This document shows, one piece after another, positions 3,933 to 24,096 of a DNA stretch of 24,096 nucleotides. Within the stretch, counting starts at the first letter, position 1; every line of letters begins with the position of its first letter. The translations under genes were made by a program, and so were the position numbers. Origin of the DNA: Aliarcobacter butzleri (GTDB lineage: Bacteria > Campylobacterota > Campylobacteria > Campylobacterales > Arcobacteraceae); assembly GCA_012522985.1 (NCBI GenBank), contig JAAYJJ010000036.1:1-24096 (forward strand). Reading direction: 5' to 3'. The notes below the pieces were generated by a model. It did not search any database, was not told the origin of the DNA, and saw nothing but the letters and a program-made list of their open reading frames with translations.

Positions 3933-4217
3933 CTATGCAGAAATCTGTATCGTTACACCAAAAGATTGCATGATTTTCATAATAGTATCAAATTTTGGTT
4001 TTGTTCCTTTATGAAACGTTTTATACAAACTCTCTCTTCCTAAACCAGTCTCATTAGCTATTTGACTCATTCCCTTAGCTTTTGCTATATTTCCAAGAGC
4101 CTCAAGCAATTCGTCCATATCTCCATCTGCTAAAATTTGAGACAAATATTCAGCTATAACTTCTTTGTTATCTAAATATTGTGTTATATCAAAATCTGTA
4201 AGCTCTATTTTACTCAT
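3933..4217 (-). CDS. higA: HigA-type antitoxin (XRE helix-turn-helix)
   Basis: A 94-residue protein from the ATG at 4217; an in-frame TTG lies two codons earlier, at 4223. The ATG is preferred because AAGGAG lies seven bases before it. The N-terminal half resembles the tail seen in putative addiction-module antidote proteins (ITQYLDNKEVIAEYLSQ). The second half is a helix-turn-helix: MSQIANETGLGRESLYKTF, then FDTIMKIMQSFGV. It should bind and neutralise the toxin encoded just upstream and repress the shared promoter. The start overlaps the toxin stop by eight bases (ATGAGTAA). The toxin-first order is typical of higBA. Confidence 0.9.
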   Translation of the reverse strand: MSKIELTDFDITQYLDNKEVIAEYLSQILADGDMDELLEALGNIAKAKGMSQIANETGLGRESLYKTFHKGTKPKFDTIMKIMQSFGVTIQISA

Positions 4218-4509
4218 TGTCAAGCTCCTTTAAAATATCATTTGCTTTTTTGATATCATCATCTTGTGATGATTTATCTCCACCAACTAATAAAACAATA
4301 ATCTTTCCACTTCTATGAGTATAATAAACTCTATAGCCTGAACCAGTTGGTATTCTAAGCTCATATATACTATTTCCGACAGATTTATAATCCCCAAAGT
4401 TACCAATCTTCATCCTCTCGACTCGCCGAAGTATAGTAACTTTACCCTTACTATCCTTGAGTTTTGATATCCACTTTGAAAAGATATTTGTTTGCTTAAC
4501 TATATACAT
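4210..4509 (-). CDS. higB: HigB-type toxin (RelE/ParE superfamily, phage Gp49-like)
   Basis: A 99-residue basic protein with the family layout. It opens with VKQTNIFSKWISKLKDSKGK, followed by RRVERMKIGNFGDYKSVG. The core strands are YELRIPTGSGYRVYYTHRSG and IIVLLVGGDKSSQDDDI. Members are ribosome-dependent or free mRNA interferases that halt growth when the antitoxin is lost. Key residues seen are the Arg and Tyr of the GYRVYY strand and Lys in GGDKS. It is transcribed with, and overlaps, the antitoxin. The predicted promoter places the transcription start at or within a base or two of the ATG and there is no ribosome site, so the toxin message may be leaderless. Target specificity cannot be read from sequence. 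Confidence 0.92.
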   Translation of the reverse strand: MYIVKQTNIFSKWISKLKDSKGKVTILRRVERMKIGNFGDYKSVGNSIYELRIPTGSGYRVYYTHRSGKIIVLLVGGDKSSQDDDIKKANDILKELDNE

Positions 4510-6946: not shown

Positions 6947-8092
6947 AACTGTTTTATTTTTTAGATTAGAAGAAGCCACATATGCACTACTAAAAGCCCA
7001 CTGAAGATTGTAGCCACCAAGCTCCCCAGTTACATCTACTGCTTCACCTATAAAATAGAGGTTTTTTATAAGTTTACTTTGCATAAACTCATCTAAAAAC
7101 TCTACATCAATACCACCTTTAGTAACTTCAGCCTTACTATAACCAAAGTTTCCTGCTGGAGCAAAGGAGTAGTTATGTATAGATAGTAGCTTATCAAACT
7201 CTTTATTAGTTAGTTTATATAATGCCTTATCCTCTAAATCAATACTTTTTAAAAAACTACTTACAAATCTTTTTGGCAAAGGCAGGGCATTGGATATACT
7301 TTGTTTGGAGTTTTTATAGTTTTGTAAACTATTTTTTGGCATAAAATCTATACTTAAACTCCCTTTTTGCCAATATAATGAACTACTAAGTACTGCTGGA
7401 CCACTTATACCTTTGTGAGCAAAGAGTAAAGATCCATCTATTACTTTTGTGTCTGTTTTAATAGCTACATCCAAAGAAAGTCCACTAAGATCTTTGAACC
7501 AAAACTGCTCTTTTTGTACTGTAAATCCTACAAGTGCTGGATTGGTTGGCTTTATAGGATGTTTAAAATATTGTGCTATTTTATAAGCTATATCACTAGC
7601 TCCTAAAGTAGCAAAGCTAAGTCCCCCACTTGCAACTATTAAGTTTTTGCAAAAAAAGCTTTTGTCTTTGCTTTTTAGCTCAAATACTCCATCTTTATAT
7701 CCAATATCCTCTATAGTAGTATCTAAAAAAAACCTACATTTTTTTGTGCTTTTAGATAAAAACTCTATTACTTCATCACTACTTTTACAAAAAAGGGTTC
7801 CTTTTACTATTTTGGGATTTAAAATTGGCTCTATTTTATAGCTTTTTAGAAGCTTTAAAAGCTCCTTTTCTCCAAAAACATCTAAAACTCTATCCACAAA
7901 CTCCTTATTACCCAAAAAATAAGAGCTATTCATATATTTATTTGTAATATTACATTTACCACCGCCGCTTATCTTGACTTTTGCTGCAATTTTAGGATTG
8001 CTATCTATTATAGCAGTAGTTGGAGAGTTTAAAAAACTAGCACAAAACATCCCACTTGCACCAGCACCTAGTATAATATGTTCATATATCAT
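6929..8092 (-). CDS. HI0933/BaiN-like NAD(P)/FAD-dependent flavoprotein
   Basis: A 387-residue flavoprotein of the HI0933/BaiN family (TIGR00275 type). The N-terminal dinucleotide-binding motif is ILGAGASGMFCA (7-18), followed by the family hallmark KISGGGKCNITN (40-51). The C-terminal FAD contact is GEAVDVTGELGGYNLQWAF, close to the chain end. Biochemical roles of most members are unknown; BaiN reduces bile-acid intermediates in clostridia, which is not a likely role here. The ATG at 8092 overlaps the sensor-kinase stop by 11 bases, so it is probably the last gene of the Spy/two-component operon. That may reflect compact packing rather than shared function. Confidence 0.9.
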   Translation of the reverse strand: MIYEHIILGAGASGMFCASFLNSPTTAIIDSNPKIAAKVKISGGGKCNITNKYMNSSYFLGNKEFVDRVLDVFGEKELLKLLKSYKIEPILNPKIVKGTLFCKSSDEVIEFLSKSTKKCRFFLDTTIEDIGYKDGVFELKSKDKSFFCKNLIVASGGLSFATLGASDIAYKIAQYFKHPIKPTNPALVGFTVQKEQFWFKDLSGLSLDVAIKTDTKVIDGSLLFAHKGISGPAVLSSSLYWQKGSLSIDFMPKNSLQNYKNSKQSISNALPLPKRFVSSFLKSIDLEDKALYKLTNKEFDKLLSIHNYSFAPAGNFGYSKAEVTKGGIDVEFLDEFMQSKLIKNLYFIGEAVDVTGELGGYNLQWAFSSAYVASSNLKNKTVKKDKL

Positions 8093-9320
8093 TTTTTTCT
8101 CTTATAGTAAAAATAACCTTTTCATCTTTGTATTGATATTCTAGCTCATATCCATTGGCAATAAGTAAATTTTTAGTTATATATAGTCCCAAACCAAAAC
8201 CTTCATCACTATTTTTATTCTCTTTATTAAAAGGCTCAAAATACTCATCTATCTCTTTTTGCAAAGGTAAAGAGTAGTTTTCTATATAGATAGTTTTATC
8301 TTTATTGTAGATAGTAGCTCTATTATTTAGTGAATATTTTATAGCATTGTCTATTAGGTTTTTTAATGCTATACTAAAAAGCTTGAAATTAACTCTATAC
8401 TTTATATCTTCTATATCTATTTGTAAATCTTGACTATCATGATATGATATATCAAGTGCGTTATCTATCAAATCAGATAAATAATACTCTTTTTTTTCTA
8501 ACTCTTTTTTTGAAGCTATTATCTCCTCTATAGAAGCAAACTCATTGATAAGACTTTCTAACCTATAAAAAACTTTTGCAAAATCCTCTTTTTTACTCTC
8601 TTCAAGCTCTAGTAAGAATTTACCCTTAGTTATAGGAGTCTTTAACTCATGCATAATATTTCTAATAAAGATATTTCTAGCCTCTTTGATTTGCTTTAAC
8701 TTCATAGCACTTTTTTTAAACTCTTTTGCTAATAAGGTTACCTCATCTTGTGAGTCACTATTGCAACACTCAAAATCAAAATTCTCTTCACCTAGACTTT
8801 GGACTTTGTTTTTTAAGATCTTCAAAGGATATAATTTTCTAAAAATAGTTATCCCAGATAGTATCAAAGCAAATAAAATAAGTCCAAATATAGCTACTAT
8901 AAATAGAGTATTTTGCTTAATCGTAAAATCATTATCTTTTATAAGTAGTGTTTGCCTTGGAGTTGTAAGATAGATATAGTAGTTGTTATTATATCTTAAA
9001 AGTTCAAAATCAATATGTTTATGTTTTTTAAAATAAAATTCCTCTATACTAGCTTTATTTAAAATATCTTTTTTTAACTCTATACCTTCAATAAGCTCAA
9101 AATTAAGCGTTTTTAGATTTTGTTTAAAATCACTACTAATATTTGCTTTTCTTTTTCACTCACTTCTTATCATTTTGGTAATTGAGTAATATCTTTGTTT
9201 ATAGTACTCTTCATTTTGTTCATAATCAAATTTTATAAATATAAAAAAACTAAAAATAACTAAAATAAAAAATAGAAAAAATATAGTCCCTAAAGTAAAA
9301 AATATAGAATCCTTTTTCAT
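8082..9320 (-). pseudogene. Membrane sensor histidine kinase, interrupted by an in-frame TGA
   Basis: Read from ATG at 9320, one frame runs 412 codons to the TGA at 8084-8082, broken only by a TGA at codon 55 (9158-9156) in SITKMIRSE-stop-KRKANISS. Segment order: TM1 about 6-30, an extracytoplasmic loop about 31-135 carrying the stop, TM2 about 136-157, and a HAMP-like linker. The H-box is MHELKTPITKGK (His224, with the Glu and Thr of the phosphatase motif), then the N-box LKNLIDNAIKYS and the G-box GFGLGLYITKNL. It resembles ArsS-type kinases of Campylobacterota. The start overlaps the response-regulator stop (ATGA). Restart at an internal TTG (8867) would give a kinase with no sensor domain. 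One substitution, for example TGG to TGA, would explain the stop. Confidence 0.85.
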
Positions 9321-10637: not shown

Positions 10638-12593
10638 CTATCTTAATGAAATATTAATGAGTTTATATCCAAGCTTTGCATAGCCCTCTTTTCTTTTTTT
10701 GTAAGTGCTTAATAAAATAGGATTTTTTACATCTAATATATCTATACATAAAGTATCTTCTATAGATGTACTTCGCCCTATTCTCCCTAAATACTGTATA
10801 ATTCTACCATAATATGATATAGGTGTAGCAAAAATAATAGTATCTAAATGCTCTAAATCCACCCCTTCACCAAAATACGCACTACTTGAGAGAATAAAGT
10901 TTGATTTATCTAAAATAGCTTGATTTTGACTTTGCTCTTTTTTGCTTTGGCTTCCGTGGATTACTACAAACTCTAGATTTTCTCTTTTTAAAAGCTCTTG
11001 TAATATCTCTATATGCTCTACTCTATCGCTAAGAAGAATAACATTTCTATCTTTGTATTTAATGGCTTGATCGACTATTAAAGAGTTCCTTTTCTCATCT
11101 TTTATAAGTTCAGCTAAAATTTCACTATAATTTTCACTATTTGATACAAAATCACTCTCTATTAGATGTACTAGCTGATTTTTGGATTTTTTGATAAAGC
11201 TCTCCTCATAAACAATCTCCCCTATTTGATGAAAAAGCAAAGGCTCTAAGCCATCTTTTCTATATGGAGTAGCACTAAGTCCCAAAGCATATCTACCTCT
11301 AAACTCTTTGATAATAGATTCAAAACTATAAGCTGGTATATGATGACACTCATCAATAATCAAAAAAGAGTACTCTTTGATAATATCAAGATTATTTTTT
11401 ATACTTTGAATAGTAGCTATATCTATAGTTTGGTTTAAACTATTTTTACTTTTTCCCAATATTCCAAACTCTTTTTTATCCACACCAAAATATTCACTAA
11501 GTCTTACAACCCACTGATCAAGTAACATAGATTTATTTACCAAAATCAACACATTACAAACACGAAGCTCTATCATCTTAGCTCCAATCAAAGTTTTGCC
11601 AAATCCCGGTGGTGCTACACATATACCATAGTCACTCTCTATAAGTTGTTCTATAGCTTGTTGTTGATTATTTCTTAGTCCATATTTGACACTATAAGGC
11701 TCTTTTTTGATAAGGACTCTATTATCTATGATATTATATTTGATTTTATAAGCATTTAAAATATCAAATAAGCTATTTTTAAATCCTCTAGGAACTATAA
11801 GTTCATCTTTTGTTTGTTTGTAGTTTTTGATTAGTTTTGGGGTATTATAGAGTGGTTCTCTAAGCCTTCTTAGCATTTGATAAGCTGGATTTTCAAAAGT
11901 AAGCATAGCTTTAATCTCTTTTAATAGTAAAAAATCTATATTATTAGGTATATGTATAGCACTATCTAGTACTAGATTTATATTTTTATTTATGATTTTT
12001 AAAACTTTAAAATGCGTTATTTTATTTAAGCTATTTAAAAATCCCCATTGAGATCTAAAAGGCTTATTTTGATTTTTATCTACAAATAGTCTAAATCCTT
12101 GTTCTATATCTTTTAGGTTTAAAGGTAGAGAAAATTTTTTATAAAAATCTACATTTATATCTTCTAAAAGAGCTTTTATAGTAAATTTAATCTTTTTATA
12201 TATAGAAAAATCATAATCATACTCAAAAAAAATCCAAGCATTTACCCTTTTGTGATTTGGATATTCTATAAAAATATCTATTTCTGATTGTTTTAATAGA
12301 TTTAAAACCTTTTCTAAATCTTCTTTATTTATACTAAACATAATAAAATTATATTTAGTATATAGGCTCTCTTCATAAATAAGTTTATGATATCCCAAAA
12401 GATGTGATTTAATCTCTTCTTGGGAGTATTTTTTTGTACTATTTTTTAAAAAAAGAGTATAAAATATCTCTATTTTTTCTTGAGTAGAAAAGCTCTGAGA
12501 TAATCTAAACTCTATATCTCTTATCTCCTCTTCTAGCCTCTTTTTTTCCTGATAAAGTAGCTCTAATCTTGTTTTTAACTCACTACTCATCAC
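10638..12593 (-). CDS. SF2 helicase fused to a degenerate TOTE-type archaeo-eukaryotic primase domain
   Basis: A 651-residue protein. Residues 1-33 look like a short coiled coil. Residues about 38-215 match, by eye, the primase-like (AEP) domain of TOTE conflict-system helicases. The matches are STQEKIEIFYTLF, IKSHLLGYHKLIYEESLY, IFIEYPNHKRVNAWIFFE, and LPLNLKDIEQGFRLFVD leading to QWGFLNSLNKIT. The position of the catalytic DFD reads SIN (MFSINKEDL, 85-93), and the SGxGAH loop reads HKRVNA, so priming activity is probably lost. The helicase half has Walker A APPGFGKT (327-334), DECHH (414-418), SATPYRKDG (440-448) and motif VI QYLGRIGRS (600-608). It starts at GTG 12593 or ATG 12590, with AAAGG overlapping the folC stop. 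It is the last gene of the yajC-to-folC directon. The biological role is unknown. Confidence 0.88.
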   Translation of the reverse strand: MMSSELKTRLELLYQEKKRLEEEIRDIEFRLSQSFSTQEKIEIFYTLFLKNSTKKYSQEEIKSHLLGYHKLIYEESLYTKYNFIMFSINKEDLEKVLNLLKQSEIDIFIEYPNHKRVNAWIFFEYDYDFSIYKKIKFTIKALLEDINVDFYKKFSLPLNLKDIEQGFRLFVDKNQNKPFRSQWGFLNSLNKITHFKVLKIINKNINLVLDSAIHIPNNIDFLLLKEIKAMLTFENPAYQMLRRLREPLYNTPKLIKNYKQTKDELIVPRGFKNSLFDILNAYKIKYNIIDNRVLIKKEPYSVKYGLRNNQQQAIEQLIESDYGICVAPPGFGKTLIGAKMIELRVCNVLILVNKSMLLDQWVVRLSEYFGVDKKEFGILGKSKNSLNQTIDIATIQSIKNNLDIIKEYSFLIIDECHHIPAYSFESIIKEFRGRYALGLSATPYRKDGLEPLLFHQIGEIVYEESFIKKSKNQLVHLIESDFVSNSENYSEILAELIKDEKRNSLIVDQAIKYKDRNVILLSDRVEHIEILQELLKRENLEFVVIHGSQSKKEQSQNQAILDKSNFILSSSAYFGEGVDLEHLDTIIFATPISYYGRIIQYLGRIGRSTSIEDTLCIDILDVKNPILLSTYKKRKEGYAKLGYKLINISLR

Positions 12594-12600
12594 TAAAATT

Positions 12601-13740
12601 CTACCTTTGATAAATCTTTAAAAACTCTTCAACAACTTTAAATGAACCAAAAACCAATATCTCTTTTTCTTTTGGTAAAGAGGAAAAAATCTCATATTTG
12701 ATATCAAGCTCTTTTAGTGTTTGTTGTAGCACTTCTAAACTCAAAGCTCTAACATCATCTATCGGTATAATAAGAACATATTCAATAATAGGCTTTAAAG
12801 TCTTTAATACAGTTTTATAATCTTTGTCTTTTAAAGTATTATAGAGTAATATTACCTTTTGATTAGCAAACTCTTTAGCTAAAACCTTGGCTCCTAGAGG
12901 ATTATGTCCTACATCTATAGCGATATTTGCTGCTATTTTTGGACATCTTCCTACTATAATAATATCTTTAAAGATCTCCAAATCTATCTCTATATCCATA
13001 TACTCCAAAGCTGCTAAAACCGTTTGAAGGTTGGTATTTAAAAACTCTTGAGTAAATATAGTATAATTTTTTCTTGCTATAGGAAAATCATCAATCTTAA
13101 AAAACTTTTGATTTTTATTTTCTACTACACTCTTTGCTATATCATATACTTCATCGTGTATTTGCTTAGCTACTATTAAAGCTTTATCAACACTATTTAC
13201 CTTTGTAGTAACTATACTTTCTATACTACTACCCAAAAACTCCATATGATCATAATCTATTGTTGTAAGAAGTGAAAGATCTGCTTTTATAACATTTGTC
13301 GCATCATATTCTCCACCAAGTCCAGCTTCAAGTACTAAAAAATCTTTTTCATCACTAAGCAAGAGTGCTAACAGTGTAGTATATTCAAAATATGAAAGAT
13401 TATCTATAAGCTTATTAGGCAAAATCTCTAAGAGCTTTTGATGAGCCTCTTGCAAAACTTCATTACTACTATCTTTTCCATCTATCCAGATTCGCTCACG
13501 AAATTCCATAATATGAGGTGAGCTATAGTGTAATACCTTTTTGCCTAGTTTTTGTAAATAAGTAGCTAGTATTCTACCTGTACTTCCTTTGCCATTTGTG
13601 CCTATTAGATGTATTACATATTTTGGCTTTGCAAAGGGCTTTAAGTATTGCCAAGCTTCAAATACAGTATCAATATTAATTTTATTAAAATATAGTGTTT
13701 TTTCTTCTAAAAACTTATATATATCTATCTCTTTTTTCAC
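12601..13740 (-). CDS. folC: Folylpolyglutamate synthase / dihydrofolate synthase
   Basis: FolC adds glutamate to dihydropteroate and to folates, using ATP. The 379-residue protein, slightly shorter than E. coli FolC (422), has the Mur-ligase-type P-loop GTNGKGS (47-53) and SSPHIMEFRERIWIDG. It also has the central EAGLGGEYDATNVI and TTIDYDHMEFLG, and the C-terminal DVGHNPLGA. The GTG start at 13740 overlaps the lptE stop (GTGA). The next gene starts seven bases after the stop. Placement after leuS and lptE fits the Campylobacterota arrangement. Confidence 0.95.
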   Translation of the reverse strand: MKKEIDIYKFLEEKTLYFNKINIDTVFEAWQYLKPFAKPKYVIHLIGTNGKGSTGRILATYLQKLGKKVLHYSSPHIMEFRERIWIDGKDSSNEVLQEAHQKLLEILPNKLIDNLSYFEYTTLLALLLSDEKDFLVLEAGLGGEYDATNVIKADLSLLTTIDYDHMEFLGSSIESIVTTKVNSVDKALIVAKQIHDEVYDIAKSVVENKNQKFFKIDDFPIARKNYTIFTQEFLNTNLQTVLAALEYMDIEIDLEIFKDIIIVGRCPKIAANIAIDVGHNPLGAKVLAKEFANQKVILLYNTLKDKDYKTVLKTLKPIIEYVLIIPIDDVRALSLEVLQQTLKELDIKYEIFSSLPKEKEILVFGSFKVVEEFLKIYQR

Positions 13741-21209: not shown

Positions 21210-24096
21210 ATGAAAAACATTTTTGCATTTTTAAAAAATATAAAACAAACAAAAGAAAAACTTGATCTTTTAATAGTTAGTGATGAAAAAGAGGCTCTTA
21301 AAGCCAAAGATATAGCAAAATATTTTGCTTATAAGCCTTTTTTATTGCCTGATTTTAGGGCAAATTATGGTGATGATCTATTATCTTTTAAAGAAGAGCT
21401 TAGCTCAATAAGTAAAGAGCTATTACTTTATCATAGATATCAAAAATCAAACAAGCTTCTTATCTCTCCAGCTAGAACTATAACTCACCTTCTACCTAAA
21501 AAAGAGTGTTTTGATAGCTTTGATATAGCTTTTGCAGATAAAATAGATATCAAAGAGCTTAAATCAAAGCTTTTTAATTGGGGATATTATTTTGTTGATA
21601 TAGTTACTAGTAGTGGTGAGGTCTCTATAAGAGGTGATATTATTGATATTGCAATAGATGATGAAAAAGGCTATAGAATATCACTTTTTGATGATGAGTG
21701 TGAGGGGATAAGAGAGTTTTTACTTGAGGATCAAAGATCATCAAAAGATGAGCTTGAAAAAATTACTATTTTTCCATCATTTTTAGCACTAAAACAGAGT
21801 GATTTTGATAAAATCTCTCAAAAAATAGAAGAAGATTCCTCAAATATCTTTATCAAAGATATTCACTCTTTAGGATTTTGGCATCTTGATGAGCTTGGAG
21901 ACTTCTATACCAAAAACCTTATCTCAGCTATAAGTCAAGAAGCCTATGATGAGCTTGATGAAATCTATATTTTTGAAGATAAAAGAGTTCCAAAAGATGA
22001 GATGGAGTCTATCTTTATAATACCAGATGATTCATCATATAAAGAAGTAAAACCTATAAATTTAAAAGAGTTTTTAAGCTTCCATACTGAAAAAAAGATA
22101 ACTATCATCTCTAGCTCTGAAGCAAAAATAAAGTCTTATGATTTAGATTTAACAAACAAAGATATAAACTATATATTTGATGATATGATTATTAACCTTG
22201 CCTCAAAAGAAGAGGTGATTTTATCTTTAAACCTAGCACACAAAAAGAAAAAACCAAAAAGAGCAAGACTTGTAATAGATGAGCTACAAATTGGGGATTT
22301 TGTAGTACATGAAACCCATGGAATAGGTAAGTTTATAGCTGTTGAGCCTGTAAAAGTCCTAGGTGCAACAAAAGAGTTTGTAGTACTAAGCTATCTTGGT
22401 GATGATAGGCTTTTAATACCTGTTGAAAATCTAGAAAGTATAGATAGGTTTGTAGCTGATAGTGGTAGTGTAGCTATTTTGGATAAGCTAGGCAAAGGTA
22501 GCTTTGCTAAAATCAAAGATAAAGTAAGAGATAAACTCTTTGCTATAGCAAAAGATATTATTGATTTAGCAGCAGCTAGGGAGCTTCAAGAGGGTATTAA
22601 GCTTCAAATACCATCTCAAATCCTATCTACTTTTCAAAATAGTGCTGGATTTGAGTATACAAGTGATCAAAAAAGATCTATAACTGAGCTTATTGATGAT
22701 CTAAAAAACGGACTTGTTATGGATAGGCTTCTTAGCGGTGATGTAGGCTTTGGAAAGACTGAAGTTGCTATCAATGCCATCTATACAGCAGCTTACAATG
22801 GATATCAAGCACTTTTTATTTGCCCTACTTCTTTACTAGCAAACCAGCACTATATATCTATTAAAAATAGACTAAAACCTTTTGGTATAGATGTAGCCAA
22901 ACTTGATGGTAAAACCACCACAAAAGAAAAAAACCTTATTTTACAAAGACTAAATAATCAAGAGCTTTTAGTAGTAGTTGGAACTCACTCACTACTTAAT
23001 ATAACTGCACCAAAACTTGCACTTATTATCATTGATGAAGAGCATAAATTTGGTGTAAAACAAAAAGAAAAGCTAAAAACTCTAACAAATAATGTTCATC
23101 TTTACTCTATGAGTGCCACACCAATTCCACGAACTCTAAACCTAGCCCTAACAAAGATCAAAGGTATGAGTAGTCTAACAACTCCACCAAAAGATAGAAT
23201 AGGTACAAGAAGCTTTGTAAAAGAATATGATGATAAGCTAATAAAAGAGATAATCTTACGAGAAAAAAGACGAGGTGGGCAGCTTTTTTATATCTATAAC
23301 AATATAGCTACTATAGAAGATAAAAAATATGAACTTTCAAAAATAGTTCCAAACCTAAGTATAGATATTATACACTCAAAAGTCTCTTCTAAAGATGCCC
23401 AGCATTTGCTAGAGAGCTTCTCTGATGGTAAAATAGATATACTTTTAGCTACTTCTATAGTAGAATCAGGACTTCACTAACCAAATGCAAACTCTATCAT
23501 TATAGATGGTGCAGATAGATTTGGTATAGCAGATCTTCATCAGCTTCGTGGAAGAGTAGGACGAGGAGATAAAGAGGGATTTTGCTACTTTTTAGTTGAA
23601 GATAAAAACAAAATAACATCTGATGCTATCAAGCGACTTGTTGCACTAGAGTCTAACTCCTATCTTGGAAGTGGTACAGCACTAGCTTTTCATGATCTTG
23701 AAATCAGAGGTGGCGGTAATATCATAGGTGAAGCCCAAAGTGGACAGATCAAACAAGTAGGATATGCTCTATATATCAAAATGCTTGAAGATGCTATTAT
23801 GAGCTTAAGTGGTGAATCAAAAGAGCAAGAAAAGCATATAGATATCAAACTTGCTATTAGTGCTTATATTAGTAGTGAGTTTATAGCTGAGGATAGGTTA
23901 AGGTTAGAGCTTTATAGAAGACTTAGTAAATGTAAAACAAAAGAAGAACTTTATGAGATAGAAAATGAGATAGAAGATAGATTTGGTAAACCTGATCTTT
24001 ATACAAAACAATTTTTAGAACTTATTTTAATCAAAATAACAGCCATAGCAAAAAACATCAAAACTATAAGTAGTTATGAGCAAAATATCACATTTA
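21210..24096 (+). pseudogene. mfd: Transcription-repair coupling factor Mfd, in-frame stop, 3' end outside window
   Basis: Mfd removes stalled RNA polymerase from damaged DNA and recruits UvrA. The frame gives a UvrB-like N-terminal part and the RNA-polymerase-interacting region LQIGDFVVHETHGIGKFIAV. Translocase motifs follow: GDVGFGKT (510-517), DEEH (609-612) and SATPIPRT (from 635). At motif V the expected GLDIPNAN reads GLH-stop-PNAN: codons 756-757 are CAC TAA (23475-23480). The same frame stays open to 24096, through LHQLRGRVGRGDKEGFCYF, LEIRGGGNIIGEAQSGQI and the start of the C-terminal domain. The break is thus a local substitution, not a frameshift. About 962 codons are in view, near full length for the phylum. 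A product ending at 756 would lack motifs V and VI and should be inactive. Confidence 0.88.

Follow-up and report, generated by a model that had tools for sequence, protein, structure and literature searches.

Some of the genes considered here carry the database label 'TOTE conflict system archaeo-eukaryotic primase domain-containing protein', which suggests a primase with a role in defence, yet the catalytic motif I pair is gone from every family orthologue scored and the genes sit in a housekeeping slot. What, then, is a protein of this kind, and what might its primase-like domain do? We approached this question through the gene found in the window, by which we mean the whole 24,096-nucleotide stretch of Aliarcobacter butzleri DNA that was analysed, and through its relatives in what the names on the nearest of them suggest is the family Arcobacteraceae.

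Architecture and setting of the gene

The gene is a single minus-strand open frame encoding 651 amino acids from a GTG at 12593 or 650 from an ATG at 12590; judged from the starts of its relatives, the ATG is more likely. It follows folC, putatively named from its own sequence and the gene order leuS-lptE-folC, after a gap of 8 bases. The features are:

10638..12593, minus strand: whole gene (coiled coil, dead Prim-Pol, XPB/UvsW-like N-terminal domain, SF2 helicase)
12498..12590, minus strand: N-terminal coiled coil, residues 2-32 (helix 2-32 in the model)
11976..12494, minus strand: Prim-Pol (AEP) domain, residues 34-206, catalytically degenerate
12408..12449, minus strand: short loop, residues 49-62, with about 28 more residues in other forms (DSSP loop 50-57 in the model)
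12327..12335, minus strand: motif I position, S87-I88-N89 instead of DxD, from alignment to intact relatives
12237..12257, minus strand: motif II position, NHKRVNA, residues 113-119, with Asn118 where His is expected
12078..12089, minus strand: motif III, L-F-V-D172, kept
11715..11987, minus strand: domain resembling the N-terminal domain of T4 UvsW / XPB, residues 203-293
10653..11696, minus strand: SF2 helicase core, residues ~300-647, motif residues intact, with R-x-D after SATP (XPB RED-like)
12601..13740, minus strand: folC, directly upstream on the same strand, with Mur ligase Pfam matches

The preliminary description had placed the gene in a housekeeping directon without giving a strand, and this holds: the minus-strand run includes yajC, secD, secF, a DUF6394 gene, leuS, lptE and folC. 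Downstream lie a weakly LTXXQ-like gene (below the Pfam cut-off) and a response regulator. A search of the same genome found the helicase gene in single copy. A Pfam scan of 21 neighbouring genes in the window revealed no TPR, OB, TBP or Cas families, and no defence genes other than a small addiction module 6 kb away. That module (3933-4509, minus strand) consists of a Gp49-like gene and a HI1420-type antidote. Two in-frame stops were seen elsewhere in the window. An mfd-like gene has a TAA at 23478-23480 (plus strand), beyond which the frame is open to the window end, and which may reflect either an error in sequencing or a disrupted gene; the apparent N-terminal part of a histidine kinase gene (called at 8082-8867) has a TGA at 9156-9158 (minus strand), upstream of which the frame is again open.

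An AEP domain of TOTE type had been proposed earlier, and Pfam bears this out. The whole protein matches PF22548 at 39.5 bits (E-value 6.1e-10), above the cut-off of 27 bits, and residues 1-301 searched alone match at 7.9e-11 over residues 38-198. A chance match was considered and rejected. Structure prediction, which the preliminary description had suggested as a check, yields a Prim-Pol fold with an N-terminal alpha/beta part and an RRM-like part.

Between the Prim-Pol and the helicase, the stretch at 11715-11987 (minus strand) is UvsW/XPB-like and lies outside all Pfam matches. The protein thereby joins an XPB-type N-terminal domain to an SF2 core, a fold match that says nothing on function. 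As had been claimed, the helicase half keeps its motifs: G332-K333-T334, D414-E415-x-H417, A441-T442 and Q600...R604...R607 are invariant in a 62-row alignment. An R-x-D after SATP occurs in 170 of the 184 proteins scanned, which include some near-duplicate rows, with K, R, Q, G or A in the middle; it reads RKD in the window's protein, where XPB has RED, and may correspond to that motif. Compared with XPB (archaeal XPB-Bax1, TFIIH) and T4 UvsW, the window's protein adds a coiled coil and a dead Prim-Pol in front. A similar coiled-coil stretch begins the AEP-less orthologues of ~475 amino acids, where it leads straight into the XPB-type domain, and a coiled coil opens all forms seen.

The order Prim-Pol then helicase within one protein is also that of the CAPP_A type 3 'CAPP-Helicase', as described in the parts of PMC8211822 available to us. 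Unlike CAPP-Helicase, the window's protein has lost the motif I pair and the motif II His, apparently leaving it without the catalytic residues for polymerase or primase activity, and its gene lies in a chromosomal housekeeping slot; the absence of Cas families nearby does not set it apart, as non-CRISPR CAPP-Helicase members do not require such neighbours. The likeness to TOTE systems (TPR, OB, TBP, Effector; stated in a section of PMC12458937 citing Aravind 2022) lies in the PF22548 match, whereas the catalytic residues and the neighbouring TPR, OB and TBP families are missing. The available portions of PMC8211822 concern active polymerases and do not mention a dead form, those of PMC5862659 contain nothing on dead or Campylobacterota forms, and our searches of openly licensed papers listed none that describes a helicase fused to a dead Prim-Pol.

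Catalytic residues and constraint in the Prim-Pol domain

The section of PMC10345425 consulted defines Prim-Pols by three motifs: I (hhhDhD/E), II (sxH) and III (hD/E). Synthesis by MpCAPP is abolished by D177A+D179A, as given in an excerpt of PMC8211822, and since these residues align with the site lost here, the mutant data would bear on the lost motif I. Alignment to intact relatives supports the replacement of DFD by SIN (S87-I88-N89) and of the SGxGAH loop by HKRVNA, the motif II stretch reading NHKRVNAW (113-120) with Asn118 in place of His. The loss extends beyond the window's gene, to which the preliminary description had confined it, and by these alignments concerns the whole family. 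A motif I DxD is present in none of 76 scorable single-locus family orthologues; the first position is never Asp, the second is acidic in two (L082 and L084, both of the window's genus), and the motif II His is missing in 73. These counts leave out L099, L170 and L177 (partial), L171-L173 (second copies), and L169, L174 and L175 (no GKT pattern). By comparison, outside relatives have the motif I pair and the motif II His intact in 66 of 66 scorable cases among the best 80 of 288 loci; from 73 outside loci we dropped L072, L049, L047, L054 and L069, as well as L022 and L028, which have gaps at motifs I and II.

The replacement of motif I varies. The preliminary description had asked whether SIN is invariant, and it is not: the window's genus has SIN, CVD, CIN and SID, and other family members have mostly ExL, ELN or EIA. 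In the full-length dead genes, the first position is Glu in 64/72, the second is acidic in 0/72, and 69/72 lack the motif II His. Motif III is Asp in 4/4 genes of the window's genus and, elsewhere, Asp in 58/72 and Glu in 5/72. Three genes (L160, L166 and L168) retain the motif II His with motif I gone, its first position being Q or K, a hint of stepwise Prim-Pol decay. Thus, degeneration has not been uniform. The S/C-x-N/D of the window's genus against the mostly E-x-L/N of the others, together with the His in three genes outside that genus, suggests that the loss of the family's catalytic residues probably took more than one step. An alternative DxD was sought as well, and none takes over: D126-Y-D128 (within WIFFEYDYDF) was rejected as a substitute metal pair because L082 and L083 have EYD at this position and P0004 has GYN, although L084 shares the DYD.

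The description of the window's protein as a compact, catalytically dead derivative likewise stands, as a loop is trimmed in its genus. The ~28-residue segment missing from the window's protein carries the GRxDV and GYxP elements, corresponding to CAPP R126 and Y138 (CAPP numbers are counted on the alignment, anchored at D177); Y138 is the CAPP residue that contacts the initiating base. Of the 72 full-length dead genes, 70 keep the R126 equivalent, and all 72 have H153 and an aromatic residue at Y138; retention of the individual loop positions (R, D, Y/F, P) ranges from 66 to 72 genes. In the window's genus this segment is deleted, yet residues such as H64, L65, G67, W120, F122, L158 and W183 remain.

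Because dS is saturated in distant pairs, selection was assessed in close pairs only (28 disjoint pairs, 27 full-length and one compact). The helicase had the lowest pooled dN/dS, 0.087, followed by the stretch between it and the Prim-Pol (0.136), the dead Prim-Pol itself (0.168) and the coiled coil (0.356). The dead Prim-Pol had a dN/dS below 1 in all 28 pairs and above that of the helicase in 24 of them. Thus, it is under purifying selection but less constrained than the motor. The single compact pair, from the window's genus, gave an AEP value of 0.12, and the intact forms (two pairs) gave nearly equal values for AEP (0.085) and helicase (0.074).

Genomic slot and history of the family

The family search matched 96 of 104 genomes, 92 with the orthologue, whole or partial; the weak-only matches in the other four are taken to be other helicases. 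Of the 76 non-partial AEP-bearing family genes, 34 come after folC and the other 42 after an M23 peptidase-bactofilin pair, itself preceded by folC in those of the 42 loci with enough flanking sequence. The preliminary description was right that the gene follows folC in the window; the idea that it always does so in Campylobacterota was rejected, with seven intact relatives outside the family, described below. The M23-bactofilin pair between folC and the helicase gene (42/76; for example, L083, on the reverse strand, and L117) is missing from the window and from 29 of 30 genes of genus g2. The AEP-less genes of one genus (n=8) have neither folC nor the pair within flanks of 164 to 1946 bases; L122, an AEP-less gene of another genus, occupies the folC/M23-bactofilin slot. 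No orthologue was found in four of the 20 genera (g4, g6, g7 and g12) in the search of 104 genomes, and the AEP domain is dispensed with altogether in one clade of 11 genes. Thus, neither the domain nor the gene is indispensable.

Of 397 genomes drawn from the phylum, seven outside the family had a gene matching strongly (E 4.1e-73 or better), intact in each case; weaker matches (E 4.6e-16 or weaker) are taken to be other helicases. Together with second copies in family genomes (L171-L173), these (L179-L185) make ten intact copies, all ten with DLD and SGxGxH. AbiEi/AbiEii-like genes adjoin six of the ten (L171-L173, L179, L181 and L182), with AbiEii matching Pfam at 2.8e-32 and AbiEi_4 below cut-off; the flanking sequence examined for L180, L183, L184 and L185 contained no AbiE. 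The intact copies beside AbiE have the same domains as the window's protein, from which they differ in their intact DLD and SGNGIH, their sporadic occurrence, their length (732-760 amino acids) and their AbiEi/AbiEii neighbours. Such a Prim-Pol-helicase with AbiEi/AbiEii may constitute a separate defence unit, and the scatter of the intact copies suggests that they are mobile. Truncated or broken second helicase copies occur in two family genomes (L174 and L175); that of L175 also adjoins an AbiEi/AbiEii pair. Among the copies next to AbiE, L173 differs in gene order.

In a tree of the helicase part (18 chosen outside rows; partial L170, L176 and L177 left out, as was L185), the family genes group into a single clade whose sister is that of the sporadic intact copies. 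The compact form (4 rows) and full AEP excision (11 rows) each map to one change. FastTree flagged long branches. A more careful tree of 52 rows that we selected, with L168 flagged, agrees: it recovers the grouping with support of 100/98 and needs three changes across four states, the minimum. The dead state is found in 76 genes over 12 genera.

Possible roles of the dead domain

By sequence and model, the family carries a predicted Prim-Pol pseudoenzyme on an XPB-like SF2 helicase encoded at a fixed chromosomal position, with the Prim-Pol fold persisting despite the catalytic loss. Its closest kin outside the slot, among the best 80 of 288 loci, are intact Prim-Pol-helicases of the CAPP-Helicase/AEP-TOTE kind. 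The best explanation of the whole, to which we give about an even chance, is a domesticated helicase that uses its dead Prim-Pol as a non-catalytic module. The family gene would descend from a mobile, defence-type enzyme; by analogy with XPB and UvsW, the helicase may still translocate on DNA or remodel it at junctions, for chromosome maintenance. In most of the family, the Prim-Pol probably holds the template strand, because the loop equivalent to the CAPP primer-initiation residues is kept there. This argument does not transfer to the window's protein, since its genus has deleted that segment; there, the smaller core would more likely position the helicase or dock a partner.

The graded series of forms could also mean that the dead Prim-Pol is a functionless passenger, eroding from active to dead to compact to gone. 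Its clean excision in one clade, its faster evolution than the helicase, the His kept in three genes and gone in others, as stepwise decay would give, and the Pfam score of relative L083, 25.2 against the cut-off of 27, all fit such decay. We nevertheless regard it as improbable: dN/dS is well below 1 in 28 of 28 pairs, excision and trimming each happened once in the sampled tree, the dead state has lasted across the 12 genera, and the loop residues are near-invariant in the 72 full-length forms. That near-invariance would also be needless in a mere scaffold, a domain with no nucleic-acid role in which only core residues matter and which would give the protein its shape or serve as a docking site. 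This reading, which we find unlikely, draws on the window's genus, where the primer-initiation loop is gone while the core residues named above stay, and on the coiled coil at the start of all forms seen.

Residual catalysis at a rearranged site, for example one-metal nucleotide binding through the motif I Glu, would make use of that Glu in 64 of 72 full-length dead genes, of the motif III Asp (58/72) or Glu (5), and of the His in the three that keep it. It is highly improbable, in that no second position is acidic in the 72, the His is gone in 69, the three His keepers carry Q or K in the first motif I position, and the window's genus has S or C there, with a nearby DYD that is not conserved. 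Finally, the gene might still be an anti-phage effector, now chromosomally fixed. It is related to conflict-type genes (PF22548; CAPPs of the helicase type occur in mobile elements, according to an extract of PMC8211822), six intact sister copies adjoin AbiE, and PADLOC models match the protein (PbeA at 3.2e-15 over the helicase, PrimPol at 2.8e-5). Set against this are the fixed slot with folC, M23 peptidase and bactofilin, the presence of the gene in 92 of 104 family genomes, and the 21 scanned neighbours with no defence gene but the addiction module 6 kb away; we give this reading little credence.

Returning to the domesticated helicase, we tentatively propose, at somewhat less than even confidence, a family-wide turn of a mobile defence-type primase-helicase into a core helicase, in which the pseudoenzyme Prim-Pol would read or clamp the template for the XPB-like motor. 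With its intact, dead, trimmed and absent domains, the natural series sets the catalytic function of a Prim-Pol apart from template binding, and it illustrates how domestication of a conflict gene may proceed. If the template-clamp reading is true, the series of intact second copy, dead, trimmed and domain-free forms would let the role of the domain be measured.
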